From contig NZ_JADHZD010000011.1 of NCBI RefSeq assembly GCF_020102855.1, forward strand, positions 62,001-126,000: a DNA stretch of 64,000 nucleotides, read 5' to 3'. Within the stretch, counting starts at the first letter, position 1; each line of letters opens with the position of its first letter. The position numbers and the translations under genes were made by a program. This stretch comes from Nocardioides lacusdianchii. Lineage in GTDB: Bacteria; Actinomycetota; Actinomycetes; Propionibacteriales; Nocardioidaceae. Below the pieces are notes generated by a model. It was not told where the DNA came from. It made no database searches and saw only the letters and a list, made by a program, of their open reading frames with translations. Below are positions 40,603-63,099 of this stretch, in pieces.

Positions 40603-40754
40603 ACCATCGACATGCGGGGACTAGATGTGGCGCCGTTGTTTCGGGACGGGGTTCCGGTCCTGGAGCCGGTACCTCAGTCGGCACTTGATGACAACCGATC
40701 CGCCTCTTCTGCGTATTTGTGTGTGACAGCATCGGTACGAACTCAGGAGCAGCG

Positions 40755-42139: not shown

Positions 42140-42206
42140 CCACAAGGGCCACACGGCAACAGCGGCGGTGTCGTCGCAACATGCCATTCTCAATAAGCAG
42201 CGCAAC

Positions 42207-42227
42207 CGGTCATCGGCAGATGCGGGT
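42207..42227 (-). repeat. Array repeat copy 10 (inverted box 2)
   Basis: On the minus strand, CACCCGCATCTGCCGATGAC then CG matches box 2 of copy 3. It is the last copy, 90 bp before the second recombinase gene, in a ~180-bp gap with no gene. Confidence 0.75.
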
Positions 42228-42317
42228 GACCCAGAGACGATCTGCCCGAAACTGCTCGCGGAGCGCGAGCGGAGCACGTCTATTGACGGGCGGGCAGGTG
42301 CGGCGCGTCGTAGATGC

Positions 42318-43229: not shown

Positions 43230-43246
43230 GAGCCCACCCTCATGAC
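43226..43246. terminator. Small inverted repeat between the two recombinase genes
   Basis: CATGAG and CTCATG pair around AGCCCACC in the 10-bp gap between the convergent stops. Weak terminator candidate. Confidence 0.3.
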
Positions 43247-45451: not shown

Positions 45452-45659
45452 CCAGCCGACAGCGTGGCGCCTAGCGTCAGTGGTGCGCGCCGGACAGCCG
45501 GGGGACCAGATGACGCGCGACGGGTCCGGGTCGCCGTGCTCACGCAGTGCGTACGACCCCGACCCACCACCGGGGGCCTTGCGACCGACGCTGGCAAGGC
45601 CCCCGGTTCCTCGCGGCAGCGGGCGCATCCCGAGCCGGTCCCGGGGTACGGGTGCAGGC

Positions 45660-45812
45660 ATGGACGACGACCGCGAGATGCCCACGACCAACCAGCCCCT
45701 CAACGCACCCGGCCCGCGCCCCAAGGTCACCCCGCTGCTCGCCGTGCTCGGCGTCGTGCTGCTGGTCGCGCTGATCTTCAGCGTGATCTCGCTGCTGCGC
45801 TACAACACCTGA
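45660..45812 (+). CDS. Small single-pass membrane protein (50 residues)
   Basis: MDDDREMPTTNQPLNAPGPR followed by a membrane helix, VTPLLAVLGVVLLVALIFSV, and a short basic end. Too small for a family call; length and charge follow the pattern of small actinobacterial membrane proteins. The 208-bp gap before it holds no supported gene. Confidence 0.55.
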   Translation: MDDDREMPTTNQPLNAPGPRPKVTPLLAVLGVVLLVALIFSVISLLRYNT

Positions 45813-45837
45813 GCCCGGGCATCCCGGGCCGCGCGGG

Positions 45838-47979: not shown

Positions 47980-48069
47980 CGAGGCCTACCTTCATGCCAG
48001 ATCCGGGCAACCCGCCGTCTCGAGGCACCGGCTACAGGGTGTCACACCGGCGGGCACCGCCATGGCGTT

Positions 48070-48660
48070 TCAGGCGTGACGCGGGCGCGCGGCCGGCGGC
48101 AGGTCGTCCTCGGGGGCGACGGGCGCCGACAGCGGGTCCGCGGGGAGCTGCTCCACCTGCTCGCGGCACCACACGGAGACCTCGCGCGTGCCCGACAGCA
48201 CCGCGGCACGGAAGTCTGCCCACGGCTCCCACGCGGTCTCGCCGACCTCGGTCGGGTCGGGGTCGACCGGCCCCGGTGCGAGCGCGACGTAGACCGGGCA
48301 CATCTCGTTCTCCACGACCCCGTCCTGCTCGGCGCGGTAGCGGAACCGCGGCAGGACCAGGCGCAGGTCGGTGAGGTGGGTGCCCAGCTCCTGCTCGACC
48401 CGTCGGCGCACGGCCTCGGCGAGCGGCTCCCCGGGTGCCGGGTGCCCGCAGCAGCTGTTGGTCCAGACGCCGGGGAAGGTGCGCTTGTCGTCGGCACGAC
48501 GGGTGAGCAGGACGTTGCCCGCCCCGTCGAAGAGGTAGCACGAGAAGGCGAGGTGCAGCGGCGTCCCGGCGTGGTGGACGCCGAGCTTGTCGGCGGTGCC
48601 GACGGCGTGGCCCTCCTCGTCGAGGAGCACCACCTGCTCGGGGGCGGCGAGGTGGGTCAT
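48070..48660 (-). CDS. idi: Isopentenyl-diphosphate delta-isomerase (type 1)
   Basis: Interconverts IPP and DMAPP. A 196-residue Nudix-fold protein with TNSCCGHPAPGE (catalytic Cys), FRYRAEQDGVVENEMCPVY with the catalytic Glu, and the LLTRRADDKRTFPGVW metal-site region. A proline/alanine-rich tail follows residue ~175. Last gene of the operon; it supplies DMAPP for the isoprenoid chain. ATG 48660 overlaps the oxidoreductase stop by 4 nt. Confidence 0.96.
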   Translation of the reverse strand: MTHLAAPEQVVLLDEEGHAVGTADKLGVHHAGTPLHLAFSCYLFDGAGNVLLTRRADDKRTFPGVWTNSCCGHPAPGEPLAEAVRRRVEQELGTHLTDLRLVLPRFRYRAEQDGVVENEMCPVYVALAPGPVDPDPTEVGETAWEPWADFRAAVLSGTREVSVWCREQVEQLPADPLSAPVAPEDDLPPAARPRHA

Positions 48661-49694
48661 GAGGTCCTTCCGACAGGTCGGGCGAGCTGGTTGACGGCGG
48701 TGGAGAACAGCCAGGGGGCGCGGGCCGCCGCCGGGACGAGGTGGCGGCGCACCGTCGGCTGCCCGGTGGCGCGCAGGAGGAGGTGGGTGAGCGCCTCGTG
48801 GCGCAGGCCGAGCCGGCGGGCGACGGACGCGTAGTGCTGGGGGCGTCCGGCGGCCAGGCACTCCACCGCGGCCCGGGCCTGGCCCAGCCCGAGCGCGAGC
48901 CCCTCCCCGGTGAGGGCGTCGACGTAGCCCGCGGCGTCGCCGACCAGCAGGACCCGGCCGCGCACGCGGGAGCTGGCCCGCTGGCGCAGCGGTCCGGCGC
49001 CCATCACGGTCGTGCGCGGACCGGTGAGGCGCTGCTCGAGCACCGGGAAGTCGGCGAGCAGGTCCTCGAAGCGGGAGCCGGCGTCGGCGAGAACGGCGAC
49101 GCCGACCAGGTCGTCGCCGACGGGGGTCACGTAGGCCTCGGCACGCCGCGACCAGTGCACCTCGACGTACGACGACCACGGCGCCTGCCGGACGTGGCAG
49201 CGCAGCCCGAAGCGGCGCCGGCCCGAGTGAGGCACCTCGAGCCCCACCAGCCGGCGCACGGGGGAGTGCAGCCCGTCGGCCGCGACCAGGTAGCGCGCCC
49301 GGCGTCCCTCGACGACGAGGTGGTCACCCCGGTCGTCGACGGTGCGGACCGGGGTGGGGTCGACCTCGATCCCGGCGGCCTCCACCTGCTCGGACAGCGC
49401 GGCGTGGAGCACCGTGCGGCGTACGCCTCGACCCGGGCCGGCGGCGAAGGCGGCGCGGACCTCCTTGCCCACCCGGTCGTCGAGGTAGTGGATGCCGGCC
49501 AGGTCGCGACCGTGCGGGTGGACGCCCAGGTCGGCGAGCTCGGCGACGGCGCCGGGCATGAGGCCCTCGCCGCACGCCTTGTCGACCGGGCCGCCGCGCG
49601 GCTCGTGCACCAGGACCGACAGCCCGGCCCGGTGGGCGTGCAGCGCCGTGGCGAGGCCGACGGGCCCGCCGCCGGCGACGACGAGGTCATGCAC
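48657..49694 (-). CDS. FAD-dependent oxidoreductase of the type III PKS group
   Basis: 345 residues. GGGPVGLATALHAHRAGLSV is the FAD loop, YLVAADGLHSPVRRLVG and [21 protein letters not shown] are the GD and DG motifs of the GGR/aromatic hydroxylase superfamily; DKACGEGLMPGAV resembles geranylgeranyl reductases. It could hydroxylate or reduce the polyketide or a prenyl chain. GTG start, 8-nt overlap with the methyltransferase gene. Confidence 0.85.
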   Translation of the reverse strand: MHDLVVAGGGPVGLATALHAHRAGLSVLVHEPRGGPVDKACGEGLMPGAVAELADLGVHPHGRDLAGIHYLDDRVGKEVRAAFAAGPGRGVRRTVLHAALSEQVEAAGIEVDPTPVRTVDDRGDHLVVEGRRARYLVAADGLHSPVRRLVGLEVPHSGRRRFGLRCHVRQAPWSSYVEVHWSRRAEAYVTPVGDDLVGVAVLADAGSRFEDLLADFPVLEQRLTGPRTTVMGAGPLRQRASSRVRGRVLLVGDAAGYVDALTGEGLALGLGQARAAVECLAAGRPQHYASVARRLGLRHEALTHLLLRATGQPTVRRHLVPAAARAPWLFSTAVNQLARPVGRTS

Positions 49695-50229
49695 CGGCGG
49701 CCTCCGTGGTCCGGGGCAGGGTCGCCAGCGCGCGGTCCTCGACCCGGATCCGGACCGCGAGCAGGCCGGCGTTGAGGACGGTGAAGACCAGCGCGGTGAT
49801 CCAGGCGGCGTGCACGAGCGGCAGGGCGATGCCCTCGACCACGACCGCGACGTAGTTGGGGTGGCGCATGAGCCGGTAGGGGCCGCCCGTCACCGGCGGC
49901 AGTCCCGGCACGATGATGACGCGGGTGTTCCACCGCCGCCCGAGGGTGCTGATGCACCACCAGCGCAGGGCCTGCGAGGCGACGACGAGGGCGAGCATCG
50001 ACCACGCCAGGACGGACGGGACGTCCGGGCGCCGGACCCATGCCTCGACGAGGGCGCCGACGAGCAGGCCGGTGTGCAGCACGACCATGAAGGGGAAGTG
50101 GCCCTGGCCGCTCTCGACTCCGCCGCGCTCCTTGCTCCACGCGGCGTTGCGCACCGACACCACCAGCTCGGCCACGCGCTCGAGGCCGACGAGGGCGACG
50201 AGGACGGTGAAGGCCAGCAGCGTGGTCAC
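49687..50229 (-). CDS. Isoprenylcysteine carboxyl methyltransferase-type membrane enzyme
   Basis: 180 residues with about four to five membrane segments. [41 protein letters not shown] is the ICMT core with the SAM-binding RHPNY. Known type III PKS partners of this fold (BpsB of Bacillus) O-methylate alkylpyrones. Adjacent to the PKS by a 4-nt overlap; same role is likely here. Confidence 0.88.
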
Positions 50230-51284
50230 GACGTCGCCCTCAGCAGCACGAGCTCGGAGCAGAAGCCCGGGCCCATGGCCAGGAGCACGCCGTGGGTGCC
50301 GGGGGCGGGCGGGCGCTCGCGCAGCGTGTCCTCCAGGACCTGGAGCACCGAGACCGAGGAGAGGTTGCCGACCTTGGCCAGCGACTCCCAGGTGAGCCGC
50401 ACCGCGTCGCGGGGGACCTCCAGCGCCGACTCGAGCGCCTCGATGACCTTGGGGCCGCCGGGGTGGCACACCCACCACCCGATGTCGGCGCGGGTGAGCC
50501 CGTGGGAGTCGAGGAACGCGTCGACGTCGCCGCGCAGGTAGCGCTCCACGAGGTGCGGCACCTCGGCGTCCAGGACGATCCGCAGGCCGCTGGCGGCGAC
50601 GTCGAAGCCCATGGTGCGCTCGCTGTCGGGGTAGAGGCGGCTCCGGGAGTCGAGGACCTCGACCGGACCGCCGGGCCGACCCTCGCTGCCGACGGCGACG
50701 ACCGCGGCGGCACCGTCACCGAAGAGCCCGCTGGCCACCAGGTTGGGCACCGACACGTCGTCGCGCTGGAGGGTGAGCGAGCACAGCTCGACGGCGACGA
50801 GCACGGCGGTGTGGCCGGGGTGGCCGAGCAGGTAGTCGTGCACCCGGGCGATGCCGGCCGCGCCAGCCACGCAGCCCAGCCCCACCAGCGGCATCCGGCG
50901 TACGTCCTCGCGCAGCCCCACCTGGGCGGCGATGCGCGCGTCGAGCGAGGGGACCGCCAGGCCCGTGACGGTCGCGGTCACGACCAGGTCGACGTCGGAG
51001 GGCGTCAGGTCGGCGGCCTTGAGCGCGTCGACGAGGGCGCGCGAGCCCAGCTCCACGGCGTGCTCGATGAACTGGTCGTTGGCGTGCCCGAAGTCCTCGA
51101 GCCGGGCGTAGTCCTCCAGCGGCAGCACCGTGTGGCGTCGCTCCACGCCGGCGTTGCGGTGGAAGCGCCGCAGCAGGGCGTGGTCGAGGCTGCGCTGGGA
51201 GATCACCTGGGCGAAGGCCTCGGTGATCTCGGCCTGGGGATGGGAGTGCGCCGGCAGCGCACCTCGGACGGAGAGGATCCTCAT
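50226..51284 (-). CDS. Type III polyketide synthase
   Basis: 352 residues, chalcone-synthase fold. The catalytic triad is Cys138 ([10 protein letters not shown]), His274 ([10 protein letters not shown]) and Asn307 (KVGNLSSVS). [18 protein letters not shown] and the FCSELVLL closing strand are normal for bacterial alkylpyrone/alkylresorcinol synthases. It should join malonyl units to an acyl starter; chain length and product cannot be read. Confidence 0.95.
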
Positions 51285-51285
51285 G

Positions 51286-52494
51286 TCAGCTACCTCGATG
51301 TGATCGGGACGGGGGCGGGTCGGACGGGAGGGACGGACGGGCGAGGGCGCCGAGCAGGCCGCCTGCCAGGCGGGGGCCGATCCGGCCGTCGCCGAGGCCG
51401 AGCTCGACGAGCGTGTCGAACGCGTGGCGGTCGCGGCCGGCCGCGCGGATGCCGGCGTCGACGATCCGGGGGGACTGCGCGAGGCGCGAGGCCAGCCAGG
51501 TGTGGCGCAGGTGGGTGCCCAGCATCTCGCGGACCACGGTGCGGTGCCGCTCGCCGGCGTCGTCGCCACGGCCGAGGGCCACGGCGCGTGCGGCGGTGCG
51601 CCCGGCGGCGATGCCGGTGGCGACGGCGTAGTAGATGCCCTCGCCGGTCATCGGGTTGACCAGGCCGGCCGCGTCGCCGACCAGCAGCACGCGACCGTCG
51701 GGCTGCTCCCAGCGCCAGGAGCTGAGGGGCAGGTGGTGCCCGCGCCAGTCGGTGCCGGTGCTCGCCATGCCGGGCAGGAGCTCCTCGAGCTGCTCGAGCA
51801 GCAGGCGCCGGCTCGGCGGGCTCCCCTCGCCGCGGCCCCGCGGCAGCAGCTCGCCGTAGCCGACGTTGGCGAGGCCGTCGCCGCGGTCGAACGCCCAGGC
51901 GTACGACGGCTGGGTGCGCTCGCCGTAGCGGATCACCTGACGCCCGGCCAGGTGCGGGGGAGTCGGCGCGTAGCCGCGGATCGCGAGCGCGCGCTGGTCG
52001 CGTCTCCGTCCGAGCAGCGCGGTGCGCACGAGCGAGTGGGCCCCGTCGGCGCCGACGACCACGCGCGCGGCGAAGCGCTCGGAGACCACCGCCCGCCCGG
52101 GCTCGGTCGTGACGGATGTGACCCGGTGGCGGCGCAGGACCGCACCGGCGGCCACGGCCTTCTCGACCAGGCGGGCGTCGAGCACCCGGCGCGGCACGAC
52201 GTAGGCCTCGCGGCGCATCGGCCCCGCGACGCGTACGTCGCCGCGGGACAGCTCCAGGTCGCGCAGCGGCGCCCAGCCGTCCACCACGTCGGCGGCGCCG
52301 ACCTCGGCGAGCCGGTCGATGGCGTGCGGGGCGATCCCGTCGCCGCACGACTTGTCGCGCGGGAAGTCACTCCGGTCGAGCAGCAGCACCCGCAGGGTCG
52401 GGTCGGCGGTGAGCGCGCCGAGGGCGGCCGACGACCCGGCCGGGCCCGCGCCCACCACGACGAGGTCCCACTGCTCCACGCCCGGGGCGCTCAT
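51286..52494 (-). CDS. Geranylgeranyl reductase-family FAD enzyme
   Basis: 402 residues. [17 protein letters not shown] (FAD), [17 protein letters not shown] (the family Cys-Gly-Asp signature), [18 protein letters not shown], and [20 protein letters not shown]. Such enzymes saturate isoprenoid chains. Alone or with the second FAD enzyme it may reduce a prenyl chain added by the UbiA protein. ATG 52494 overlaps the UbiA stop. Confidence 0.9.
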
Positions 52495-53315
52495 CGGGCC
52501 ACCACGAGCAGGGTCGCGTCGACCAGCGCGATGGCGATGGCGGCGAGGAAGGGAGCGCGACGGGGGCCGGTGACGACCACGACGGCCAGCGCGAGCACGA
52601 GCGCCGCCGTCGCCACGGTCACGGCGGTCGGGGGTGCCGCGCCGACGAGGGCGACGAGGGAGGCGGTGACGAGGACGACGGCTGCCACGGGGGCGATGCG
52701 GGCGCGCCCGAGGCGGTGCGGCAGGCCGCGTACGCCCGTGGCCGCGTCGTCGTCGAGGTCGGGCAGGACGTTGAGGAGGTGGGCGCCCACGCCGAGCAGG
52801 GCAGCCGCCAGCGGCCACCACCACGGCGGCAGCTCACCGTCGGCCAGGGACACGACCGCGGTGAGGCCGCCGAACGAGAGGGCGTACGGCGCCCAGGACC
52901 ACGCCGTCGCCTTGAGCCCGAGGTTGTAGGCCCAGGCCGACGCCACGCAGCCGAGGTGCACCAGCCCTGCTGCGGTGCCGAGCGCCATCGACAGCAGCAC
53001 GCACACCACGACGGCGGCGGCGCAGGCGGCGCGGACGCCGCGCACGGACACCTCCCCGGTCGCCATCGGCTTGTCGGTGCGTCCCGCGGCAAGGTCGCGC
53101 GGGAGGTCGATCAGGTCGTTGCTCCAGCCGATCGACAGCTGCCCGGCGAGCACGGCCGCGACCACGAGCGCGGACCGGGATGCATCCAGTCCCTGGGCCA
53201 CGCAGAGGAGTCCGGCCAGGACGGTCACGGCCACTGCCGGGCCGGCGTGTGCGGCGCCCAGGACGCCGAGGGCCGCGCGCGAGCCGCGGCGCGCGGGTGC
53301 GGTGGCGGCGCTCAT
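52491..53315 (-). CDS. UbiA-family prenyltransferase
   Basis: 274 residues, about nine membrane segments. First Asp-rich motif NDLIDLPRD, second DLDDDAATG, both in the right places. It transfers a prenyl diphosphate to an acceptor. Two readings: prenylation of the type III PKS product (its downstream genes suggest it), or lycopene elongation to a C50 carotenoid (CrtEb-type; its upstream genes suggest it). Sequence alone does not decide. Confidence 0.88.
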   Translation of the reverse strand: MSAATAPARRGSRAALGVLGAAHAGPAVAVTVLAGLLCVAQGLDASRSALVVAAVLAGQLSIGWSNDLIDLPRDLAAGRTDKPMATGEVSVRGVRAACAAAVVVCVLLSMALGTAAGLVHLGCVASAWAYNLGLKATAWSWAPYALSFGGLTAVVSLADGELPPWWWPLAAALLGVGAHLLNVLPDLDDDAATGVRGLPHRLGRARIAPVAAVVLVTASLVALVGAAPPTAVTVATAALVLALAVVVVTGPRRAPFLAAIAIALVDATLLVVAR

Positions 53316-54154
53316 GTGCCCACCCTTGCTCGCCGCGCCAACGACGTCGGTGCCAGCGTCGAGGCCAGGCCCAGCGCGAGCGCGGCGACCAGCCAGCCGG
53401 CCAGCACGTCAGCGACGTAGTGCTCGCCGGTGTAGACGAGCACCGCCGCCATCGTCACGGCGTAGGCGAGCAACGCCCCGCGTGCCCACCGTGACACCGA
53501 GGGCCAGAGGAAGAGGGCGACGAGCAGCGCAGCCCCGGCGTGCAGCGACGGCATCGCCGCCACCGGGTTGCTGCCGTCCTGCCCGAGCTGGGTGAGGCGA
53601 CCGACCACGTCGAGGTGGAGGTAGTCCCACCCGACGTGGGAGATGCGCTCCACCGGTCCGATGTCGCCGCTCTCGGAGGCGAGCCACGGCGGTGCGGCGG
53701 GGTAGGCGACGTAGATCGCGATCCCGAGGAACGACATGGACAGCACGGCCACCAGCCACGAGGTGAATCGCTCGCGCAGCCGGAACCAGACGAGGGTCGT
53801 CAGCAGCGGGATGGTGACGAAGTGGGTGACGTAGACCAGCGCCGCGATGGCGTCGTACCACTGCGGGGAGCCGGCGAGCAGCCGCTCCTGGAGCCACACG
53901 GTGGGCACGGCACCGAACAGGCGCTCGTCGGCCACCGCGGGACCCGAGACGTGCAGCGGCGCGCCCACCCGGTTGGTCGTGGCCCCGTCACCGGTCTCGA
54001 GCGGCGCGCTGACCCACCCGGCGACGGCGTAGGCGAGGAGGATCGCGCTCAGCGGCGACCACGAGATGAGGAACTGCGCGATCGGGCCGTGGCGCGAGTC
54101 GTCGCCGGACGTCTCGGCCCGCTCCCCGGTCCGCGCCTGCGCCTCGGTGCTCAC
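53312..54154 (-). CDS. PAP2-superfamily membrane phosphatase or transferase
   Basis: 280 residues with about six membrane segments. AMPSLHAGAALLVALF is the C2 motif with its His, YTGEHYVADVLAGWLVA the C3 motif; the C1 motif is not obvious, as in the inositolphosphotransferase-like PAP2_3 group. It may act on prenyl or lipid phosphates. GTG 54154 overlaps the acyltransferase stop. Confidence 0.87.
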   Translation of the reverse strand: MSTEAQARTGERAETSGDDSRHGPIAQFLISWSPLSAILLAYAVAGWVSAPLETGDGATTNRVGAPLHVSGPAVADERLFGAVPTVWLQERLLAGSPQWYDAIAALVYVTHFVTIPLLTTLVWFRLRERFTSWLVAVLSMSFLGIAIYVAYPAAPPWLASESGDIGPVERISHVGWDYLHLDVVGRLTQLGQDGSNPVAAMPSLHAGAALLVALFLWPSVSRWARGALLAYAVTMAAVLVYTGEHYVADVLAGWLVAALALGLASTLAPTSLARRARVGT

Positions 54155-54651
54155 GACCGGCTCCCGCGCCGCGACAGCCGCACGAGGATCGCCTGGGTGC
54201 GGAAGCGGTTGTAGCGCTGGATGAGGATGAAGGGCAGGTTCACGAGCACCCCGTACCCCATCAGGAGCGCGGCAGGCAGCGGCGGGTTCCAGAGCACGAA
54301 GAGGGGGCTGCACGCCATCGCCCACCAGTGCCCGAGCTCGGCGCGACGCGTCTCGCGGACGAACTGCTCGAGCCCCGCGACGTCGGCCGAGGGCAGCTGC
54401 CGCTTGCTCACCCCGCCCGCGAACAGGGCGCCGGCCTCGGGGAGCCGGTCCTTCCACCGGTGGATGCGCAGCCGGCGTCGGTAGAGCCGTCCGTCGCGCT
54501 CGAACGCCCGCTGGCGCAGCACGAACCCGTCCCGGCCCAGCCGATCGTCGCCGAGGCGGTGCGCGGCATATCCGGTGGCGGCGTGGAAGACGCCCCAGGC
54601 GACCACGTCGACGGCCACCGTGACGGTCTGCGGCATCACGTAGCGCAGCAT
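54151..54651 (-). CDS. CrtO-like carotenoid glycosyl acyltransferase
   Basis: 166 residues. RRLRIHRWKDRLPEAGALF, VSKRQLPSADVAGLEQFVRETRRAELGHWW, and NLPFILIQRYNRFRTQAILVRL match the pattern of glycosyl-4,4'-diaponeurosporenoate acyltransferase, which acylates the sugar of staphyloxanthin. In a C40 operon it would act on a different glycosyl carotenoid. ATG 54651 shares its A with the previous stop (GTG 54654 also possible). Confidence 0.86.
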   Translation of the reverse strand: MLRYVMPQTVTVAVDVVAWGVFHAATGYAAHRLGDDRLGRDGFVLRQRAFERDGRLYRRRLRIHRWKDRLPEAGALFAGGVSKRQLPSADVAGLEQFVRETRRAELGHWWAMACSPLFVLWNPPLPAALLMGYGVLVNLPFILIQRYNRFRTQAILVRLSRRGSRS

Positions 54652-55820
54652 CACGCCACCTCGCGGGCGGAGTCGTGCCCGCGCAGGTCCACGTCGCGAC
54701 CTCGCCACCGCACCGACCGGCGTACGCCGCTCAGGACCGCGGAGCGCGCGAAGAGCAGGTCGAAGGCGAGCAGGGAGACCGGGGTCAGGGCCCAGGTCCA
54801 CCAGCGGAAGGACCCCAGCCGGCGCAGCACCGCGCGCAGCTGCCAGGCGAGGGCGACGTACGCCGCCACCCACACCGCTGCGTGCCCGCCGACCAGTGTG
54901 CCGCCGATCCCCGTCGTCGCGTCGAGCAGCGTCAGCGCGGCGCCGACGGCGACCGCGTGGTGCACGGAGACGAAGAGCCCGGTGCCGAGCGCGGCCGGGA
55001 GCCACGCGGTGGAGGCCCCGGAGGCGATGTTCTTCGTCCAGCCCGCCGCGAGCTGGCCCACGCCCTCGGGGTAGCTGCGCATCCGCACCGACGCACCTCC
55101 CGTCGCGCACACCACCGGCAGGCCGGCGCGGTGGTAGGCCGCGGCGAGGGCGGCGTCGTCGAGGATCGCGGAGCGGACCGCGGCGTGACCGCCGACGGTG
55201 GCGAGGTCGGACCGGGAGGTGAGCAGGCAGGGTCCGAAGGCCATCGGGACGCGCGAGCGCACCGCCCTCGCCCGGGGGCCGGTGAACGCGGCGCTCGCCA
55301 TCACCGCGACGACGTTGAACCACGCGGAGAGCTGCTCGTGCGGGCGGACGACGCGGTGGTAGGGCTGCACCGACACCAGCCCGCCAGAGCCGGCGTGCAG
55401 CTCGAGGAGCCCGGCGAGGGCGTCCGGCGCCAGCACGGTGTCGGCGTCGAGGAAGAGCAGGAGGTCGCCGTCGGTGACGTCGGCGCCCACGTGGCAGGCC
55501 CATGCCTTGCCGGTCCAGCCTGCGGGCGGCTGTCCTGCGGGCACGACCCGGGCGCCGGCGGACCGTGCCACCTCGGCGGTGGCGTCGCGGGAGTCGTCGT
55601 CGACGACCACGACCTCGCGCACCGGGGTGTCGAGCGCGGCGAGCGAGGAGAGGAGGTCGGGCAGGGTGAGTGCCTCGTCGCGCGCCGGAACGACGACCGA
55701 GACCCGCGCCGAGGACGGTGCGGCCGCGGTGCCGCGAGGCGGCACACGGAGATCGGCGAGCAGCCAGCGCGCCGTCGCCATCGCGGCGAGGACGAGGACC
55801 ACCACGACGACGTCGCTCAT
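54651..55820 (-). CDS. CrtQ-like carotenoid glycosyltransferase (family 2)
   Basis: 389 residues. One N-terminal membrane helix, then a GT-A fold: VSVVVPARDEALTLPDLLSSL, VVVDDDSRDATAEVA, GKAWACHVGADVTDGDLLLFLDAD and GGWTKN-type AAGWTKNIASGA; C-terminal membrane segments end the protein. It resembles 4,4'-diaponeurosporenoate glycosyltransferase (CrtQ), partner of CrtO. Expected reaction: addition of a sugar to a hydroxylated or carboxylated carotenoid. Confidence 0.88.
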   Translation of the reverse strand: MSDVVVVVLVLAAMATARWLLADLRVPPRGTAAAPSSARVSVVVPARDEALTLPDLLSSLAALDTPVREVVVVDDDSRDATAEVARSAGARVVPAGQPPAGWTGKAWACHVGADVTDGDLLLFLDADTVLAPDALAGLLELHAGSGGLVSVQPYHRVVRPHEQLSAWFNVVAVMASAAFTGPRARAVRSRVPMAFGPCLLTSRSDLATVGGHAAVRSAILDDAALAAAYHRAGLPVVCATGGASVRMRSYPEGVGQLAAGWTKNIASGASTAWLPAALGTGLFVSVHHAVAVGAALTLLDATTGIGGTLVGGHAAVWVAAYVALAWQLRAVLRRLGSFRWWTWALTPVSLLAFDLLFARSAVLSGVRRSVRWRGRDVDLRGHDSAREVA

Positions 55821-57214
55821 GCGCGTGCTCGGTCCAGGCGGGTGACGACCAGCGGCATCCCGCCGCGCGGGTGCACCGCCACCCTGGCCTGCGGCTCGGG
55901 TCGGCTCCAGCCCTCGGGCACGGCGAGCCGGTGCTCGCGGAGCACCTCGTCGAGCACCATGACCATCTCGCCGAGCGCGAACTCCCGTCCGATGCAGAGG
56001 CGGGGCCCCTGCCCGAACGGCAGGTACGCCGTGCGGCCCGCCCCCGGGTCGAGGAAGCGCTCCGGACGGAACGCCAGCGGCGCGGTCCACGGGTCGGGCC
56101 GGCGGTGCACGAGCCACGGGCTGATGATGGCGAGGGTGCCGGCGGGGACGTCGTGGCCCGCGACGACGTCGTCGGCCAGCGAGCGCCGCGAGAGCGCCCA
56201 CGCGGGCGGGAAGAGACGCAGCGCCTCGTCGATAACGGCGCGGGTCCACGGCAGGGCCTCGCGCGTGGCGACCAGCGACACCGGCCCCGGGTGCGCGGCG
56301 AGCTCGGCGCGGGTGCGGTCCTGGACCTCGGGGTGCTCGGCCAGCAGCATGAACGTCCACGCCAGCGACGCGGCGACGGTCTCGTGCCCCGCGACGATCA
56401 TGGTGACGAGCTCGTCGCGGACCTCGGCGTCGGTGAGCCCGCTGTCGAGCAGCAGGCCCAGCAGGTCGTCGCCGTGAGGAGCCGTGCTCGTCCGACCGTT
56501 GCGGGCCCGGCGCTGGGCGATGATCTCCGCCGACGCCGCGTCCAGGCGGCGCCGCGCCGAGCGCAGCCGCACGTTGAGGCGCGTGGGCGTCCAGTGCGCC
56601 CGGGGGAGGATCGCGCGGCCGAGCCGGACCACGAGTTCCGCGGCGTCGCTCGTCGCGTCGAGCAGGGTCTGGGCCTGGCCGGACAGGTCGGCGGAGAAGA
56701 GCGCGCGTCCGACCGCGTCGAGGCCGATGGTGTGGGTCAGCGCGGCCACGTCGACCACCCCGGTGCCCCCGCCGGCGCCGACCGCGGCGGGCAGGCGTAC
56801 GCCGACAGCGGACCGTGCCGCGGCCCGCACCTGCTCGCCGACCGCCTCGAGGCGCTGGTGGTGGAATGCGGGGGCAGCGAGGCGACGGTGGTCGATCCAG
56901 CTCGGCTCCGCGGAGGCCAGCAGGCCCTGTCCCGTGACCCGGGCGAGGGCGGCGTACTGCACGGTGTCCTTGCCCCAGCTGCGTGCCGAGGTCTGCAGGA
57001 CGTGGCGCACGGCAGCGGGGTCGTTGAGGAGCAGCGCGGGAGCACCCGGCACCGGGAAGGACACGAGGTCGCCGTACTCCTGGGAGACCGAGGCAAGGAA
57101 CGACAGCGGGTCGGCTCGGATGGAGCGGAACTCACGGGCCATGTCGAGCGAGGTCGGCCCGGGTACGCCGATGTCGGTGGGCTGCATCTCCTGCAGCCTC
57201 GTCGAGATGCTCAC
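55817..57214 (-). CDS. Cytochrome P450 of the carotenoid group
   Basis: 465 residues. I-helix VAGHETVAASLAW, K-helix EALRLFPP (ExxR), and heme loop FGQGPRLCIGREFA with the ligand Cys. No membrane anchor. Its place between lycopene cyclase and the CrtQ-like gene suggests that it makes the hydroxyl or carboxyl group that the next enzyme glycosylates, as CrtP does by another route in Staphylococcus. GTG 57214. Confidence 0.92.
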   Translation of the reverse strand: MSISTRLQEMQPTDIGVPGPTSLDMAREFRSIRADPLSFLASVSQEYGDLVSFPVPGAPALLLNDPAAVRHVLQTSARSWGKDTVQYAALARVTGQGLLASAEPSWIDHRRLAAPAFHHQRLEAVGEQVRAAARSAVGVRLPAAVGAGGGTGVVDVAALTHTIGLDAVGRALFSADLSGQAQTLLDATSDAAELVVRLGRAILPRAHWTPTRLNVRLRSARRRLDAASAEIIAQRRARNGRTSTAPHGDDLLGLLLDSGLTDAEVRDELVTMIVAGHETVAASLAWTFMLLAEHPEVQDRTRAELAAHPGPVSLVATREALPWTRAVIDEALRLFPPAWALSRRSLADDVVAGHDVPAGTLAIISPWLVHRRPDPWTAPLAFRPERFLDPGAGRTAYLPFGQGPRLCIGREFALGEMVMVLDEVLREHRLAVPEGWSRPEPQARVAVHPRGGMPLVVTRLDRARA

Positions 57215-57549
57215 GCGGCCTCCTGCGCAGGCCGGCGCCGGCCGAGCCACGTCCAGACGACGCAGCTGGTCAGCACCAGTGCGAAGCCGAAGGCCAGGTC
57301 CTCGACCGGTGCGTAGACCAGCCGGCCGTCGCCGACGAGCACGATCCTGTCGCTGCCGATGATGGCGTCGGGGGAGTAGCGCACGATCCCGCGCCCAGTG
57401 AGCCAGCCGTTGGTGAGCAGCTGGAAGAACACGATGATGGCGTAGGCCGACCACCAGTCCCGGGTCGAGGTCACGCGCGTGCGCAGACCCCACCGGTCCA
57501 GGGCCAGGGCGACGAGCACGCCCACCACCGCGAGGGCCGTGTAGGTCAC
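57211..57549 (-). CDS. crtYd: Lycopene cyclase subunit, second (CrtYd-like)
   Basis: 112 residues with three membrane segments, ending VEDLAFGFALVLTSCVVWTWLG, where the PxE(E/D) motif expected of the family is PVEDLAFG. Works as a heterodimer with the preceding small protein; ring type (beta or epsilon) is unknown. GTG 57549 overlaps the first subunit by 4 nt. Confidence 0.85.
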   Translation of the reverse strand: MTYTALAVVGVLVALALDRWGLRTRVTSTRDWWSAYAIIVFFQLLTNGWLTGRGIVRYSPDAIIGSDRIVLVGDGRLVYAPVEDLAFGFALVLTSCVVWTWLGRRRPAQEAA

Positions 57550-57890
57550 GCGTCCCCCTCGTGCGCGGCGCTCGCGAGCCGACGTCGGGCGGCGCTGACG
57601 CCCTCGAGCGTCAGCACCGCCACCAGCGGGATCACGACGAAGAAGCCGATCTCCTCCAGCGGCAGGCCGCCGACGCGCCAGGGCAGCGTCTGACCGGCGT
57701 CGAAGGACCAGTGCCCGGCCGCGGTGGCGTAGAGGTCCCACACCACGAACGGCGTCCCGGCCAGCAGCACGGTGAGCAGCAGCCGCCGGGGCTGGCGCAG
57801 CACGTCGAGCCGGAAGGCAGGCACCAGCGGCAGGGTCCCGGCCAGGCAGAAGGCAAGCATGGCGACGTAGGACCAGTGGACCAGGCTCAT
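57546..57890 (-). CDS. crtYc: Lycopene cyclase subunit, first (CrtYc-like)
   Basis: 114 residues, three membrane segments. GTPFVVWDLYATAAGHWSFD and VGGLPLEEIGFFVVIPL carry the PLEE motif of split lycopene cyclases. The split form is the actinobacterial type and is also used for C50 carotenoids in Corynebacterium/Micrococcus. Confidence 0.87.
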   Translation of the reverse strand: MSLVHWSYVAMLAFCLAGTLPLVPAFRLDVLRQPRRLLLTVLLAGTPFVVWDLYATAAGHWSFDAGQTLPWRVGGLPLEEIGFFVVIPLVAVLTLEGVSAARRRLASAAHEGDA

Positions 57891-59506
57891 CGGCCGCCCA
57901 CCGGCTGCGCCGACCGGTCACCGGTCAGTCGCTTGAGCACCAGCTCGGCGCTGATCAGGCACATCGGCAGGCCGACGCCGGGCACCGTGGTCGAGCCGGC
58001 GTAGAGGAGCCCGTCGACCTTCGCCGAGGTGTTCCCCGGGCGGAGGAAGGCGCTCTGTCGCAGCGTGTGCTCGAGGCCGAGCGCCCCGCCCCGCCAGGAG
58101 TGGTAGCGCGCCTCGAAGTCCTCGGGACCGACGGTGTGGCGCACGACGACCCGGTCGGCGAGGTCGTGGACCCCCGACCACCGGGCGACCTGCGCGATCG
58201 CGGCGTCAGCCGTGCGCTCGACCTGCTCCGAGCCCGCACCGTCGTCGCCCCCGCGCCCGATGCGGGTGTCGGCCGGCACCGGGACGAGGACGAAGAGGTT
58301 CTCGTGGCCCGCGGGCGCCACGGTCGGGTCGGTCTCGGAGGGCTTGCAGACGTAGACCGACGCCGGTTCGGGGACGCGGGCGTCCTTGCCGAAGATGTCG
58401 CCGAAGTTCTGCCCCCAGTCGCTGGTGAAGAACAGCGAGTGGTGCGGCAGCTCGGGCAGCGACCCCTCCACGCCCAGCATCGCCAGGACAGCGCCCGGTC
58501 CGGGCGAGCGGTCGCGCCACACGCGCTCGGGGTGCGTCTGCAGAGCGGTCGGCAGGAGGGCGGTCTCGAGGTGGTGGAGGTCGGCGGCACCGACGACGAC
58601 GTCGGCCGGCAGCACGACCCGGTCACCCGAGGCGTCGAGGTGCTCGACACCCGTCACCCGCGCCCGGCGCCCGGCGCCTTCCGTCACGATCGCGGTCGCC
58701 TCGCACCCGGTGTGCAGCCGCGCCCCGTGGCGCTCGGCCAGGGCGGCGATGACCTCGATGAGGCGGGTGAACCCGCCCTGCGGGTAGAGCACGCTGTCGC
58801 CGAGGTCGAGGCGGCTCATCAGGTGGTACATGCTCGGCGCGCGGCTGGGGGAGGAGCCGAGGAAGACCGCGGGGTAGCCCAGCACCTGCCGCAGCCGGTT
58901 GTCGGAGAACGACGCGGCGACGTGGCTCTCCAGCGACCGGGTCAGCAGCCGGCTCAGCTTCGGGGTGCTGCGGACGACGTCGGGGTGGAGGAACGACGAG
59001 GTGGCGTCGAAGTTGCTGTAGAGGAAGCGGCGCAGCGCCATGTCGTAGGTCTCCTCCGCCGAGCGGAGGTAGGCGTCGAAGCGCTCACCGGCACCGGGCT
59101 CGAGGGACTCGAACAGGGCGCGGTTGTGCGCCCGGTCGGGGCGTACGTCGATCGACTCGTCGTGGCCCTCGAAGAACACCCGGTAGCTCGGGTCGAGGAC
59201 GGTGAGGTCGAGCTCGGCGTCCGCCGTGGTGCCGAGCAGCGAGAAGAAGTGCTCGAACACCTCCGGCATCAGGTACCACGACGCGCCGGTGTCGAACCGG
59301 AACCCGCTGCGCTCCACGCTGCCGACCCGACCGCCGAGGTCGTGGTTCTTCTCGACGAGGTCGACGCTGTGCCCCCGCGAGGCAAGCAGGGCGGCCGTGG
59401 CCAGCCCGGCGATGCCGCCACCGATGACCACGATCCGCTGCGCGGACCCGTCGGGGGCGGTCGTGCCCGTGCGCCGGCCGAGCCGGTCGGGGAGTGCCAT
59501 TCTCAT
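57887..59506 (-). CDS. crtI: Phytoene desaturase
   Basis: 539 residues. IVVIGGGIAGLATAALLASRGHSVDLVEKN is the FAD site, GGRVGSVERSGFRFDTGASWY the substrate region, and near the C-terminus GLLYAGSTTVPGVGLPMCLISAELV is the CrtI signature. It desaturates phytoene to lycopene. ATG 59506 with a second ATG two codons later. Confidence 0.95.
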   Translation of the reverse strand: MRMALPDRLGRRTGTTAPDGSAQRIVVIGGGIAGLATAALLASRGHSVDLVEKNHDLGGRVGSVERSGFRFDTGASWYLMPEVFEHFFSLLGTTADAELDLTVLDPSYRVFFEGHDESIDVRPDRAHNRALFESLEPGAGERFDAYLRSAEETYDMALRRFLYSNFDATSSFLHPDVVRSTPKLSRLLTRSLESHVAASFSDNRLRQVLGYPAVFLGSSPSRAPSMYHLMSRLDLGDSVLYPQGGFTRLIEVIAALAERHGARLHTGCEATAIVTEGAGRRARVTGVEHLDASGDRVVLPADVVVGAADLHHLETALLPTALQTHPERVWRDRSPGPGAVLAMLGVEGSLPELPHHSLFFTSDWGQNFGDIFGKDARVPEPASVYVCKPSETDPTVAPAGHENLFVLVPVPADTRIGRGGDDGAGSEQVERTADAAIAQVARWSGVHDLADRVVVRHTVGPEDFEARYHSWRGGALGLEHTLRQSAFLRPGNTSAKVDGLLYAGSTTVPGVGLPMCLISAELVLKRLTGDRSAQPVGGR

Positions 59507-60387
59507 GCTCGTCCTTCGTGGAGTGAGCCCAGCGCGAGGCGGAGCTTGACTGCGGCGGGCACGCGCACGCGCTGCCGGCGGATGTCGGCGGCCGGCGTCG
59601 CGCGCAGCCGCGCGGCCAGCTCGGCGAAGGTCGCGTGCGCGGCGCGCACCGCGCGCCGGCTGCTCGGGGGCAGGTCGGGGACCACGGCGGCCGCCGCGGC
59701 CAGGTCGGCGTCGATGTCGTCGAGGATCCGGTCCCGGTCGCGGTCGCAGAAGCGCTCCACGTCGAGGCCGGGGAAGTAGTCGCGCCGCAGGACGTCGTGG
59801 TCGTCGGAGAGGTCACGGACGAAGTTGAGCTTCTGGAAGGCCGCGCCGAGCCGCCTCGCCCCGGGGGTGAGGTCCTCGTAGGCGCGGGCGCGGTCACCGA
59901 CGGCGTCGGGCGCGGCGAGGAAGGCCCGCAGGCACATCAGGCCGACGACCTCGGCCGAGCCGTAGACGTAGCGGTCGAAGCTCTCCTGGGTGTGCGTCGT
60001 GGTGTCGAGGTCGGTGCGCATCGAGGCGAAGAAGGGCGCCACGACGTCGTCCTCGATGCCGACGGCCTGCGCCGTGCGGGCGAAGGCGTGCACCACGAGG
60101 TTGCCGCTCCAGCCGGTCGCGAGGGCGTGGCGTACGTCGTCCTCGAGCCAGTCGAGCATGGTGGCACGGGCGTCGCGCCCGAGCGCGGGATCGGGGTTGT
60201 CGACGATCTCGTCGGCGACCCGCACCAGGGCGTAGACGTTGCGGACCTGGGTGCGCACCGGCTCGCCGAGCAGGCGCGAGGCCAGGCCGAAGGAGCTGGA
60301 GTACTGGCGGATCACGACGGCCGAGCTCTCCTCGGACACCACGTCGTAGAGGTTGCGCGGGACACCGCGCCCGACGAACATGCTCAC
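59503..60387 (-). CDS. crtB: Phytoene synthase
   Basis: 294 residues. VVIRQYSSSFGLASRLL opens the domain; RVADEIVDNPD and the second Asp-rich LNFVRDLSDDHDVLRRDYFP bind Mg-diphosphate. It condenses two GGPP into phytoene. GTG 60387 overlaps crtE by 4 nt; ATG 60381 is the alternative. Confidence 0.95.
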   Translation of the reverse strand: MSMFVGRGVPRNLYDVVSEESSAVVIRQYSSSFGLASRLLGEPVRTQVRNVYALVRVADEIVDNPDPALGRDARATMLDWLEDDVRHALATGWSGNLVVHAFARTAQAVGIEDDVVAPFFASMRTDLDTTTHTQESFDRYVYGSAEVVGLMCLRAFLAAPDAVGDRARAYEDLTPGARRLGAAFQKLNFVRDLSDDHDVLRRDYFPGLDVERFCDRDRDRILDDIDADLAAAAAVVPDLPPSSRRAVRAAHATFAELAARLRATPAADIRRQRVRVPAAVKLRLALGSLHEGRA

Positions 60388-61427
60388 GCCGCCGCCTCGC
60401 GTCCGCCGACGAGGACCGAGGTGGAGGCCTCGAGGTCGTCGAGGAGCTCGACGGGGACGCCGACCTCGTCGACCATCGCCCGCGCGGCGGTGAGGTGCTC
60501 CGCGGCGAGGTCCTCGACGAACGCGCGGGACCCCGAGGTGGTCAGCAGCTCGCGCACCCGGGCGAGGTCGTCGTCGTCGAGGTCGCGCCCGACGAGGGGA
60601 CGCACCTGCTCCCACTCCGCGGTCGTCCGCGCGTGGACGAGCAGGGGCGTCTGCTTGCCTGCGCGCAGGTCGCTGGTCGTGCTCTTGCCCGAGCGCGCCG
60701 GGTCGCCGAAGACGCCGATCAGGTCATCGACCAGCTGGAAAGCCAGGCCCATCGAGCGGCCGGCCTCACCGAGCCGGGCGACCACGGGCTCCGCGGCACC
60801 GGCGAGCACCGCGCCCGCCTGGAGCGGGAGGGAGAACGAGTAGGCGCTGGTCTTCTGCTCCTCCATCGCCAGGCTCTCGGCGAGCGACACCTCGTGGTGG
60901 GCCATCGTGAGGCGTACGTCTGCCAGCTCGCCCGACGCGGTCGTGTGCAGCGCGACGTCGAAGAGGTCGAGGAGGCAGTGCACGACGTCGGTCGGGGCGC
61001 CGCAGGTGGCCACCGCACGTACGGCGGCCGCGAGGGCCAGGTCGCCGGCCAGGATGGCTGCGGTCAGGCCGTAGGCGCCCATCGCCTCGGGACCGGCGCC
61101 ACCACGGTGTGCGGCGTCGCGGAAGGTGCCGCTGACGTTGGGCCGTCCGCGCCGCAGGTGGTCGTCGTCGATGACGTCGTCGTGGATGACGAACGCGGTG
61201 TGGAGCAGCTCGACGGCAGCACCCACCTCCGCAGCGACCAGCGGCAGGGTCCCGCCCAGGGCGTCGTGCGTCGCGACGACCAGGCGCGGGCGCAGCCGCT
61301 TGCCGTCCTCGGTGGCCGCGGCCAGCGCGTCCCAGAGCGCCGCGTGGTGGGGATCGATCGCGGTCGCCCGCACGCGTCCCTCGTCCAGCAGCCTCGCGAG
61401 TGCCTCGTCACAACTGGTCGAACTCAT
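60384..61427 (-). CDS. crtE: Geranylgeranyl diphosphate synthase
   Basis: 347 residues. First Asp-rich motif FVIHDDVIDDDHLRRGRP, second QLVDDLIGVFGDPARSGKS. It supplies GGPP to phytoene synthase and possibly to the UbiA enzyme. Start ATG 61427 has GGAGGG five bases before. First gene of the operon, divergent from the MerR gene. Confidence 0.95.
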   Translation of the reverse strand: MSSTSCDEALARLLDEGRVRATAIDPHHAALWDALAAATEDGKRLRPRLVVATHDALGGTLPLVAAEVGAAVELLHTAFVIHDDVIDDDHLRRGRPNVSGTFRDAAHRGGAGPEAMGAYGLTAAILAGDLALAAAVRAVATCGAPTDVVHCLLDLFDVALHTTASGELADVRLTMAHHEVSLAESLAMEEQKTSAYSFSLPLQAGAVLAGAAEPVVARLGEAGRSMGLAFQLVDDLIGVFGDPARSGKSTTSDLRAGKQTPLLVHARTTAEWEQVRPLVGRDLDDDDLARVRELLTTSGSRAFVEDLAAEHLTAARAMVDEVGVPVELLDDLEASTSVLVGGREAAA

Positions 61428-61512
61428 CGGTGCCCTCCATGAGCTGCTCAAACCCACCGCTCCCAAAAACCTATGCAACACTGCCAAGGAAATCTAGGCG
61501 AGAGGTAGAGGA
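61428..61512. promoter_or_regulatory. Divergent control region, crtE operon and MerR-DICT gene
   Basis: 85 bp, AT-richer than its surroundings at 61462-61495. TAGGTT on the minus strand (61473-61468) could be the crtE -10. GAGGTAGAGG precedes the MerR ATG. I do not see a clean long palindrome of MerR type. Confidence 0.45.
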
Positions 61513-62394
61513 ATGGCACACCAGCATCCCACCTCGCCGCCCCCCGGGTCCAAGGTGTCCGGGGGCGAGCTGTCGATCGGCGAGCTCTCCCGTAGGACCG
61601 GGGTACCCATTGCCACGATCCGCAGCTGGGAGTCGCGCCACGGATTTCCGCGGCCCCGTCGCCAGGACGGCGGGCACCGCCGCTACGACGGGTCCGACGT
61701 GGAGGCCGTGCGCGGCGTGCTCGAGCGCCGCCGCGGCGGCCTGTCCCTCACCGCGGCCATCGAGCGGGCGGCGTCCCCGCGGGTGCGGTCCGGGTCGGTC
61801 TTCGCCGAGCTGCGACAGCGCCACCCGGAGCTGGTGCCGCACGTGCTCTCGCGCGACACGCTGCTCGCGATGAGCCGCGCCATCGAGGACGAGTGCTGCG
61901 CGCGTGCCGCGCAGCCGCTGCTCTTCGGTGGCTTCCAGCGCGAGAGCCGGCTGCGCGGGTCGCTCGACCGCTGGCGCGAGCTGGCGCGCACGTCGCGCCG
62001 CACCGTGGTCTTCGCCGACCTCCCGAACCCCGCTCCGCTGGCCGACGGAGCACCTGTCGAGGTGGGACTGCCCGCGGACGCCCCGCTCAACCGGGAGTGG
62101 CTGGTCGTGTGCGACGCCGGCGACCTCCCCGCCTGCCTGGCCGCCGTCGAGCTCCCCGGACGATCTGGTGCTGCGCCGTCCGAACGCAGCTTCGAGGCCG
62201 TGTGGTCGCTCGACCCCCGCGTCGTGCGCGACGCGAGCCGGGTGTGCTCGGTCCTGGCCGACGGCTACCGGCCCGGCTGGCGTCCTGCTGGTCCGCAGCT
62301 GACCGACGACGAGCCCCCGCCCGCGTCGGAGGACCTGCGGCGTGCGTCCCACCTCTTCGAGAGGATGGTCTCCTACCTCGATGCGACGAGGTGA
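61513..62394 (+). CDS. MerR-family regulator with a DICT sensory domain
   Basis: 293 residues. Winged helix at about 18-88: LSIGELSRRTGVPIATIRSWESRHGFPRPRR...GGHRRYDGSDVEAV. Then a DICT-like part (about 125-260): QPLLFGGFQRESRLRG, WRELARTSRRTVVFADLP, REWLVVCDAGDL. DICT proteins are linked to light-related control in several bacteria. It likely controls the operon that starts 85 bp away on the other strand. Confidence 0.88.
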   Translation: MAHQHPTSPPPGSKVSGGELSIGELSRRTGVPIATIRSWESRHGFPRPRRQDGGHRRYDGSDVEAVRGVLERRRGGLSLTAAIERAASPRVRSGSVFAELRQRHPELVPHVLSRDTLLAMSRAIEDECCARAAQPLLFGGFQRESRLRGSLDRWRELARTSRRTVVFADLPNPAPLADGAPVEVGLPADAPLNREWLVVCDAGDLPACLAAVELPGRSGAAPSERSFEAVWSLDPRVVRDASRVCSVLADGYRPGWRPAGPQLTDDEPPPASEDLRRASHLFERMVSYLDATR

Positions 62395-62403
62395 GGCAGA
62401 CAG

Positions 62404-63099
62404 GTGACTCGGACGGGGGACGCAGTGGCGATCAGGGCAGTGGTGCTCGACATCGGGGGAGTCCTCGAGGTCGTCGACGACGAGGTGTTCCCCGCTCCCG
62501 CCGAGGCCCGGCTGGGCCTGGCCCCCGGCAGCATCTCCGGCGGGCTGGCGGCGTTGCCGGGCGACGCGATGCTGGGCGAGGTGACCGAGGACGAGGTCCG
62601 CGCGGAGTGGCAGCGGGCGCTCGGGCTCGACGACGACCAGGTCGACGGGCTGCTCGAGGACTACTGGCGGTGGTACGTCGGCACCCTCGACCGCCCGCTG
62701 CTCGACTGGTTCGCCTCGCAGCGCCCGGCGCGGCTCACCGGCATCCTGTCCAACTCCGGTCCCGGCGCCCGTGAGCGCGAGCGCCACCACGGGTTCGAGG
62801 ACCTCACCGACGACATCGTCTACAGCCACGAGGTGGGGGTGGCCAAGCCCGACCCCGCGGCGTACGAGCTCACCGCCCGCCGTCTCGGGGTCGAGCCCCA
62901 CGAGGTGCTGTTCCTCGACGACGTCGAGGCCAACGTCGACGCCGCGCGGCGCGCCGGCTGGCACGCCGTCCTCCACCGCGACACCGCGACGTCGATCGCG
63001 GAGATGGAACGGATCATCGCCGAGACGTCCCGGGACCGACCGGCTCAGGCCGGGTCGCTGCCCGACTCCCCGGGCGGGTCGGGGAGCGGCCAGACGTAG
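62404..63099 (+). CDS. HAD-superfamily hydrolase (HAD-IA)
   Basis: 231 residues. Motif I VVLDIGGVLEV has Gly in place of the second Asp, as in many HAD-IA dehalogenase-like members; motif II ILSNSG, motif III KPDPAAYELTARRL, motif IV LFLDDVEANVDAARRAGW. A small phosphatase or dehalogenase; substrate unknown. GTG start nine bases after the MerR stop. The 3' end overlaps the next leftward gene by 55 nt. Confidence 0.92.
   Translation: MTRTGDAVAIRAVVLDIGGVLEVVDDEVFPAPAEARLGLAPGSISGGLAALPGDAMLGEVTEDEVRAEWQRALGLDDDQVDGLLEDYWRWYVGTLDRPLLDWFASQRPARLTGILSNSGPGARERERHHGFEDLTDDIVYSHEVGVAKPDPAAYELTARRLGVEPHEVLFLDDVEANVDAARRAGWHAVLHRDTATSIAEMERIIAETSRDRPAQAGSLPDSPGGSGSGQT

Follow-up and report, generated by a model that had tools for sequence, protein, structure and literature searches.

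In a 64,000-nucleotide stretch of the genome of Nocardioides lacusdianchii (contig NZ_JADHZD010000011.1; the whole stretch is referred to here as the window), fifteen minus-strand genes with intact reading frames run from crtE to idi (61427-48070), and we propose that they probably form two membrane-lipid pathways laid end to end, with joint supply and control. Module A has the order crtE-crtB-crtI-crtYc-crtYd-cytochrome P450-glycosyltransferase (GT)-acyltransferase-PAP2, and module B continues as UbiA prenyltransferase-geranylgeranyl-reductase-family enzyme (GGR)-type III polyketide synthase (PKS)-ICMT-type methyltransferase-flavin adenine dinucleotide (FAD)-dependent oxidoreductase-idi. The initial annotation had joined the same fifteen carotenoid and type III PKS genes, a set borne out by the intact frames and by matches to curated family models, and had offered either two membrane lipids under one control or one hybrid product. 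The former is supported; the latter is disfavoured, given that the modules are separate or single in 67 of the 83 Nocardioides genomes with a marker of either and, in the loci mapped, part at the PAP2|UbiA boundary. No description of a fused carotenoid/type III PKS operon was found among the literature titles and abstract beginnings searched.

The distribution of the genes across genomes carries this reading. With the acyltransferase as the marker of module A and the PKS as that of module B, 33 of 196 Nocardioides genomes have the former and 79 the latter: 16 are fused (that is, both markers on one strand with starts no more than 4.3 kb apart), 13 have the modules apart (including G289, which was counted here despite broken frames), 4 have A only, 50 have B only and 113 have neither. 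Gene maps of 80 fetched stretches plus the window (some B stretches end at contig ends, and G148, G093, G050, G058, G028, G011, G023, G063 and G132 all lie outside the 196-genome sample) split at the PAP2|UbiA boundary, with 18 stand-alone A loci holding UbiA once and GGR and PKS never, and 39 stand-alone B loci holding neither PAP2 nor P450. A stand-alone module B consists of UbiA, GGR, PKS, ICMT and FAD genes, with or without idi, and UbiA or GGR is relocated or missing in some; module A maps in the order given above, except in G279, where crtYd went undetected, and in G188, described below. A check that covered the fifteen genes found none confined to fused loci, and gene order is retained at roughly 59-92% protein identity to the window, the two nearest relatives aside. 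The acyltransferase profile matches 27 of 345 genomes in a class-wide sample, and 8 of 80 named PKS loci, all eight of them in Nocardioides, carry A genes. Fused loci are seen in N. furvisabuli, N. flavus and N. cavernae, and N. zhouii has the B genes without module A. Among seven more distant acyltransferase contexts, one, in another family, has crtE to acyltransferase plus idi, and none of the remaining A genes was seen in the other six. Another genus of the same family (G050, locus L078) has B genes and DICT-crtE-crtB-crtI about 5 kb apart on one strand, with B first; this is a separate case of A and B as neighbours.

Within the operon, the 14 junctions comprise twelve 4-nt overlaps, one 8-nt overlap and one 1-nt gap: from crtE, the first ten are 4-nt overlaps, followed by the gap (GGR|PKS), a 4-nt overlap (PKS|ICMT), the 8-nt overlap (ICMT|FAD oxidoreductase) and a last 4-nt overlap (FAD oxidoreductase|idi). 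This agrees at 14 of 14 junctions with the earlier claim that all are overlaps or 1-nt gaps, with two depending on GTG starts (at crtE|crtB, GTG at 60387 gives the 4-nt overlap and ATG at 60381 a 2-nt gap; at GT|acyltransferase, GTG gives 4 nt of overlap and the next ATG 1 nt). Elsewhere in the window, a crude gene caller places 13 of 34 same-strand junctions in the tight range (-20 to +1), compared with 14 of 14 in the operon with the chosen starts and 12 of 14 when the caller applies its own rule of taking the nearest start; at p = 13/34, the chance of 14 of 14 is 1.4e-6. Across the 16 fused genomes, 12 to 14 of the 14 junctions have a start -20 to +10 from the upstream stop (the start nearest that stop was taken, a choice that favours tightness), and the PAP2|UbiA joint is a 4-nt overlap in 14 of the 16. 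Such packing is not special to the fusion, as stand-alone A and B modules are about as tightly packed. A scan found no sigma-70-like promoter inside the operon, which says little about its interior because the same scan found none anywhere in 45500-62500; its three terminator-like sites, against 1.4 expected, were not used as evidence. The overlapping genes would carry expression over the PAP2|UbiA joint, presumably on a single transcript, and the packing together with the single shared control region suggests that both lipids are produced together.

That control region lies between crtE and a divergent regulator gene (61513..62394, plus strand) encoding a MerR DNA-binding domain of the CarH/CarA type and a C-terminal DICT domain (PF13411 and PF10069, both over cut-off). 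In its AlphaFold2 model (predicted local distance difference test score, pLDDT, 84.5), residues 18-90 match Thermus CarH (5c8d_F; Z 13.0, root-mean-square deviation (rmsd) 1.6, 71 aligned, 38% identity), and in the structure search the MerR domain is 41% identical to that of CarA. The protein resembles the CarH/LitR/CarA repressors both in this domain, which is closest to CarH and CarA, and in its divergent position relative to the crt genes. Unlike these repressors, it has a DICT domain where the cobalamin-binding half would be: the match to the CarH model NF052513 (50 bits, cut-off 400) is limited to residues 18-102, and no cobalamin-binding domain was found, with Pfam at E<=0.001 giving MerR and DICT only. 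The DICT half gives a middling match to the TrmB sugar-binding domain (Z 10.8, rmsd 3.9, 131 aligned) and also resembles PLD-fold domains (Z about 9-11 across the TrmB/PLD matches); no solved photoreceptor domain is among the matches listed in the structure search, which does not amount to an exclusion. Given this replacement of the cobalamin half by a domain that models as TrmB/PLD-like, the signal may not be B12 and light, and an excerpt of one report has the DICT domain predicted to act in light response (PMC8612252). The TrmB/PLD-like model may also be informative on DICT domains in general.

The regulator gene lies divergently beside crtE in all 16 fused loci and in 11 of the 18 stand-alone A loci. 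Aligning 29 intergenic regions between regulator and crtE (27 from these fused and A loci plus two from a neighbouring genus) reveals a putative operator at 61468..61499 (minus strand) made of two boxes, GCCTAGATT and TTGCATAGGTT, recognisable with variants in the alignment; the exact TTGCATAGG is present in 14 of the 29 regions and CTAGA in 20. The site pattern has one match in the 4.5-Mb genome, and a reversed-pattern control has zero. A strict site stands upstream of crtE in 13 of 16 fused loci, 7 of the 11 A loci with a regulator (7 of 17 A loci overall; G188, with crtE absent from its fetched stretch, was excluded from this count) and 1 of 3 other crt loci. It is found in none of six A loci with crtE in view and no regulator, and in none of 39 stand-alone B loci, 37 of which are informative (the B stretches of G146 and G050 end at the first gene). 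Strict matches on both strands of all loci number 21 and are exactly those upstream of crtE (13 fused, 7 A and 1 other). The three fused loci without a strict match have one-base variants of the site in the alignment; in the regulator-bearing G181 and G199, neither the strict nor the loose pattern was matched. As fused loci keep the regulator and site and module B alone shows no site, module B appears to have come under the carotenoid control unit in fused strains. On this evidence from co-occurrence, we infer that the CarH-like regulator binds the two-box site, through which it would control both halves.

The fusion seems to have a common history. In an rpoB tree of 40 genomes (without G164, with 9% contamination, G300 and G223, with no rpoB match, and G289; G279 sits on a very long branch), all 15 fused genomes included fall within one clade of 24, with SH-like approximate likelihood-ratio test (SH-aLRT)/bootstrap support of 89.2/84, or 100/100 when the sister pair G159 and G167 is added. 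Outside this clade, all eight genomes of the tree with both modules have them apart. As the fused genomes share one clade, their adjacency was probably inherited and not gained many times, and the joining may have happened in the ancestor of this Nocardioides clade. Nine unfused genomes are scattered within it, so the fusion is not essential. Gene trees (supports as bootstrap/SH-aLRT; the crtE tree was a quick one and is not relied on) give three such pairs of unfused and fused genomes: B-only G187 pairs with fused G141 (100/90) and G294 with fused G082 (96/72) in the PKS tree, and split G205 pairs with fused G143 (100/100) in the crtI tree. In G117 and G205, crtE lies immediately before UbiA in module B and idi follows PAP2 in module A, as expected if each half is what a deletion left of a fused copy. 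The simplest account, and the favoured one, is a single fusion that later came apart several times; transfer is also possible.

Module A is read as an acyl-glycosyl C40 xanthophyll pathway. Its first genes would lead from geranylgeranyl diphosphate (GGPP) through phytoene and lycopene to a cyclised carotene: crtE, GGPP synthase-like (60384..61427, minus strand, as for all genes of the operon; PF00348, 166.6 bits, with no NCBIfam model over its cut-off); crtB, phytoene synthase-like (59503..60387, or 60381 with the ATG start; PF00494, 125 bits, the sole match in the genome at E<=0.001); crtI, of the phytoene desaturase family (57887..59506; TIGR02734, 548 bits, over cut-off); and the lycopene cyclase subunits crtYc (57546..57890; PF18916, 36 bits, and TIGR03462, 64 bits) and crtYd (57211..57549; 28 and 44 bits to the same models), all four matches being over cut-off. 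The cytochrome P450 (55817..57214; PF00067, 227 bits) has as its top five sequences in the PDB 7wzl (an unassigned P450), then LUTEIN DEFICIENT 5 (LUT5; 6j94 and 6l8i), CYP175A1 (1n97) and 1wiy, an entry titled only cytochrome P450 that we take to be CYP175A1 as well. LUT5 and CYP175A1 are carotenoid hydroxylases, and this enzyme is a likely carotenoid ring hydroxylase, judging from these relatives, and would give a hydroxyl acceptor. A family-2 GT (54651..55820; CruG/HpnB-like; PF00535, 72 bits, over cut-off; NF045692 CruG, 89 bits, below the cut-off of 600) and a CrtO-type glycosyl-carotenoid acyltransferase (54151..54654; PF18927, 107 bits, over cut-off) would then glycosylate and acylate the product to a zeaxanthin- or cryptoxanthin-type acyl glycoside; the two genes are neighbours in all 18 stand-alone A loci, as suits an acyl-glycosyl pathway at the gene level. 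The final gene of the module encodes a PAP2_3 membrane protein (53312..54154; AUR1/phosphatase-like; PF14378, 113 bits, over cut-off) and is present in 18 of 18 stand-alone A and 16 of 16 fused loci, as opposed to 0 of 39 stand-alone B loci. It weakly resembles phosphoinositol dihydroceramide synthase (49 bits against a cut-off of 480) and might attach a phospho head group to the glycosylated carotenoid; its structure model (pLDDT 45) was left out of the structure search.

Among known acyl-glycosyl carotenoids, that of Staphylococcus, staphyloxanthin, is a C30 compound. The nearest model for module A is the thermozeaxanthin of Thermus, where, as for staphyloxanthin, a GT and an acyltransferase also act after the carotenoid, and the likeness of the P450 to CYP175A1 and LUT5 is a further resemblance to acyl-glycosyl carotenoid pathways. 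Unlike both of these systems, the window has a two-subunit CrtYc/CrtYd cyclase, a PAP2 protein and another gene order. Thermozeaxanthins are described as carotenoid glucoside esters with branched fatty acids (PMC4021367).

Module B is read as a phenolic lipid or quinone pathway resembling Agq, Srs and Pkq, in which the genes from UbiA to the FAD oxidoreductase would yield a long-chain phenolic polyketide that undergoes methylation, ring oxidation and prenylation. It opens with the UbiA prenyltransferase (52491..53315; PF01040, 76 bits, over cut-off), present in 35 of 39 stand-alone B loci versus 1 of 18 stand-alone A loci (G181), and the GGR (51286..52494; TIGR02032, 182 bits, over cut-off), which may reduce the prenyl chain of the product. 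The type III PKS (50226..51284; PF02797 and PF00195, over cut-off) has the catalytic triad Cys138, His274 and Asn307, its closest solved structure is Pks11 of Mycobacterium tuberculosis (4jao, 412 bits), and its best named relatives among the best 80 matches of a contig scan are Nocardioides (N. furvisabuli at 99%), with no Actinoplanes among these 80. The methyltransferase (49687..50229; ICMT/PEMT type; PF04140, 97 bits, over cut-off) stands in an SrsB/PkqB-like position and the FAD oxidoreductase (48657..49694; PF01494, 52 bits, over cut-off; TIGR02032, 109 bits, below the cut-off of 158.8) in an SrsC/PkqC-like one, and these genes lie on the PKS strand in 80 and 76 of the 80 named PKS loci, respectively. 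The operon ends with idi, a type I isopentenyl diphosphate isomerase (48070..48660; NF002995, 239 bits, over cut-off), for which each of the 16 fused genomes has one match at E<=1e-25, located in the operon; among the 13 split genomes, two matches each are found in G117 and G194. We suggest that crtE, a probable shared precursor supply, and idi would feed both modules from a single isoprenoid pool.

The agqA-D genes combine a UbiA prenyltransferase, a methyltransferase and a FAD enzyme next to a type III PKS. At the family level (PF01040; the Agq cluster being known here by description and not by sequence), the window shares with that cluster a UbiA-type prenyltransferase adjoining the PKS, and it differs in having a GGR-family gene, idi, Phe at the Trp site discussed below and an upstream carotenoid module. 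The Agq cluster of Actinoplanes missouriensis yields alkyl-O-dihydrogeranyl-methoxyhydroquinones from a PKS product that is prenylated and hydroxylated, as excerpts of the sources state (PMC3569393, PMC10896814). The srs (Streptomyces griseus) and pkqABC (Mycobacterium smegmatis) operons, which direct phenolic lipid or polyketide quinone formation, show the PKS-methyltransferase-oxidoreductase order seen in the window (PMC9927152, PMC5916927); these are three-gene operons, whereas the window has fifteen genes including a prenyltransferase, a reductase and carotenoid genes. Polyketide quinones serve as electron carriers in mycobacteria (PMC9927152, PMC5916927, PMC10896814).

Several observations weigh against the two-pathway reading or parts of it. 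In G188, crtE, crtB and crtI were not found beside the other A genes, and a neighbouring regulator is absent from 7 of the 18 stand-alone A loci. G181, which lacks the PKS, has a UbiA homologue (L109:15403-16173, 58%) past a divergent idi adjoining module A. GGR was found in 31 of 39 stand-alone B loci and is missing from 8, although some of these stretches are cut. G105 and G300 carry idi after PAP2 without module B (G105 lies outside the fused clade), so idi is perhaps part of A in origin. PAP2 has no obvious step in the pathway, and the relative in another family that has the A genes from crtE to the acyltransferase plus idi lacks it. The node of the fused clade stands at 89.2/84 and the inner and deep nodes are weak, which leaves a single origin favoured and not proved. 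Last, the PKS has Phe227 in place of the Trp associated with resorcinol formation.

This residue bears on what module B makes. The Trp site of alkylresorcinol synthases (ArsB-281), which falls on Trp230 of Pks11 in an alignment with the window PKS, is occupied by Phe in 45 of 55 G-numbered PKS loci and 27 of 80 named ones, among which are all the fused loci (16 G-numbered and 8 named), and the PKS was therefore not filed as an alkylresorcinol synthase of the ArsB, SrsA or PkqA type. Pyrone formation is associated with Tyr or Gly in this position (PMC5916927, PMC9927152), so that an alkylpyrone or other non-resorcinol polyketide, which would be compatible with two joined pathways, is conceivable, if somewhat unlikely. 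Against it, the FAD enzyme is retained beside the Phe-type PKS in all 45 G-numbered and all 27 named loci, and ICMT accompanies both PKS types in 80 of 80 named loci, a pattern that would fit a methylated and oxidised ring. In its most specific form, our proposal is a membrane-remodelling regulon whose joint products, a carotenoid glycoside carrying an acyl group and a prenylated, redox-active polyketide (hydro)quinone, draw on one GGPP pool, and in which a CarH-like repressor would sense a small molecule through its TrmB/PLD-like DICT domain and a Phe227-type PKS and the reductase would give a B product unlike the known Agq and Pkq lipids; we advance this combination tentatively, as one possibility.

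The adjacency could also be neutral, inherited from one chance joining, with internal promoters keeping the halves separately controlled. The placement of the fused genomes tested in one clade, nine of whose 24 members do without the fusion, is consistent with this, but with the joint overlapping by 4 nt in 14 of the 16 fused genomes an internal promoter would fit only inside PAP2, and gene order has been kept at roughly 59-92% protein identity to the window outside its two nearest relatives; we regard neutral adjacency as unlikely. More doubtful still is the reading of UbiA as a lycopene elongase of the CrtEb type, with a C50 carotenoid as the product of the first half. C50 pathways, too, have small cyclases made of two subunits like CrtYc/CrtYd, UbiA lies within the operon, and G181 has its homologue near module A without a PKS. 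Yet UbiA accompanies the PKS (35 of 39 against 1 of 18 loci, as given above), and at least 17 of those 35 B loci are in genus-sample genomes without an acyltransferase match; the C50 pathway (CrtEb/CrtYe/CrtYf), with an elongase travelling with the crt genes, was rejected on the single UbiA among the 18 A loci. A single hybrid product of all fifteen genes, with the acyltransferase or UbiA, for instance, linking a polyketide phenol to the carotenoid or to its glycoside, would suit the overlaps through the joint and the sharing of crtE and idi by both halves, but is very unlikely because by markers the modules are apart in 13 of the 196 genomes, A stands alone in 4 and B in 50, the mapped stand-alone modules have the genes of the fused halves (G181, G188 and the GGR gaps aside) and none of the fifteen genes is restricted to fused loci.

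Around the operon, a gene for a PAS-PAS-GAF-SpoIIE phosphatase (45838-47979, minus strand) lies 90 nt downstream of idi, and 14 of the 16 fused genomes have it beyond the end of the operon (the exceptions are G082 and G293); it is possibly a stress-signalling partner. The region 29307-44343, with a lower G+C content of about 0.65-0.70, holds a tRNA-Val (29307-29380), a TrwC relaxase (30450-32933), a sigma-70-family factor (39120-39626) and a phage-type integrase (43240-44343), the three protein genes all on the minus strand, and has the appearance of a mobile element that integrated close to the operon.

In summary, one lineage of Nocardioides, a soil bacterium, has the genes for carotenoids and for prenylated phenolic (quinone-type) lipids, which usually form two separate sets, in one operon. 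Pathways of both kinds were already known, and the novelty lies in their well-supported fusion and the clade that carries it, in the control site and the type of regulator, and in a PKS of the Phe type. The regulator is CarH-like and has a sensor domain that has been little studied, a candidate operator has been identified, and natural fused, split and half-only strains are available for comparison. A membrane-protecting pigment and a polyketide quinone of the electron-carrying kind, lipid classes otherwise studied separately, would come from one operon and one precursor supply, apparently under a single switch, and the inducer of the carotenoids may offer a handle on the poorly known role of actinobacterial phenolic lipids.

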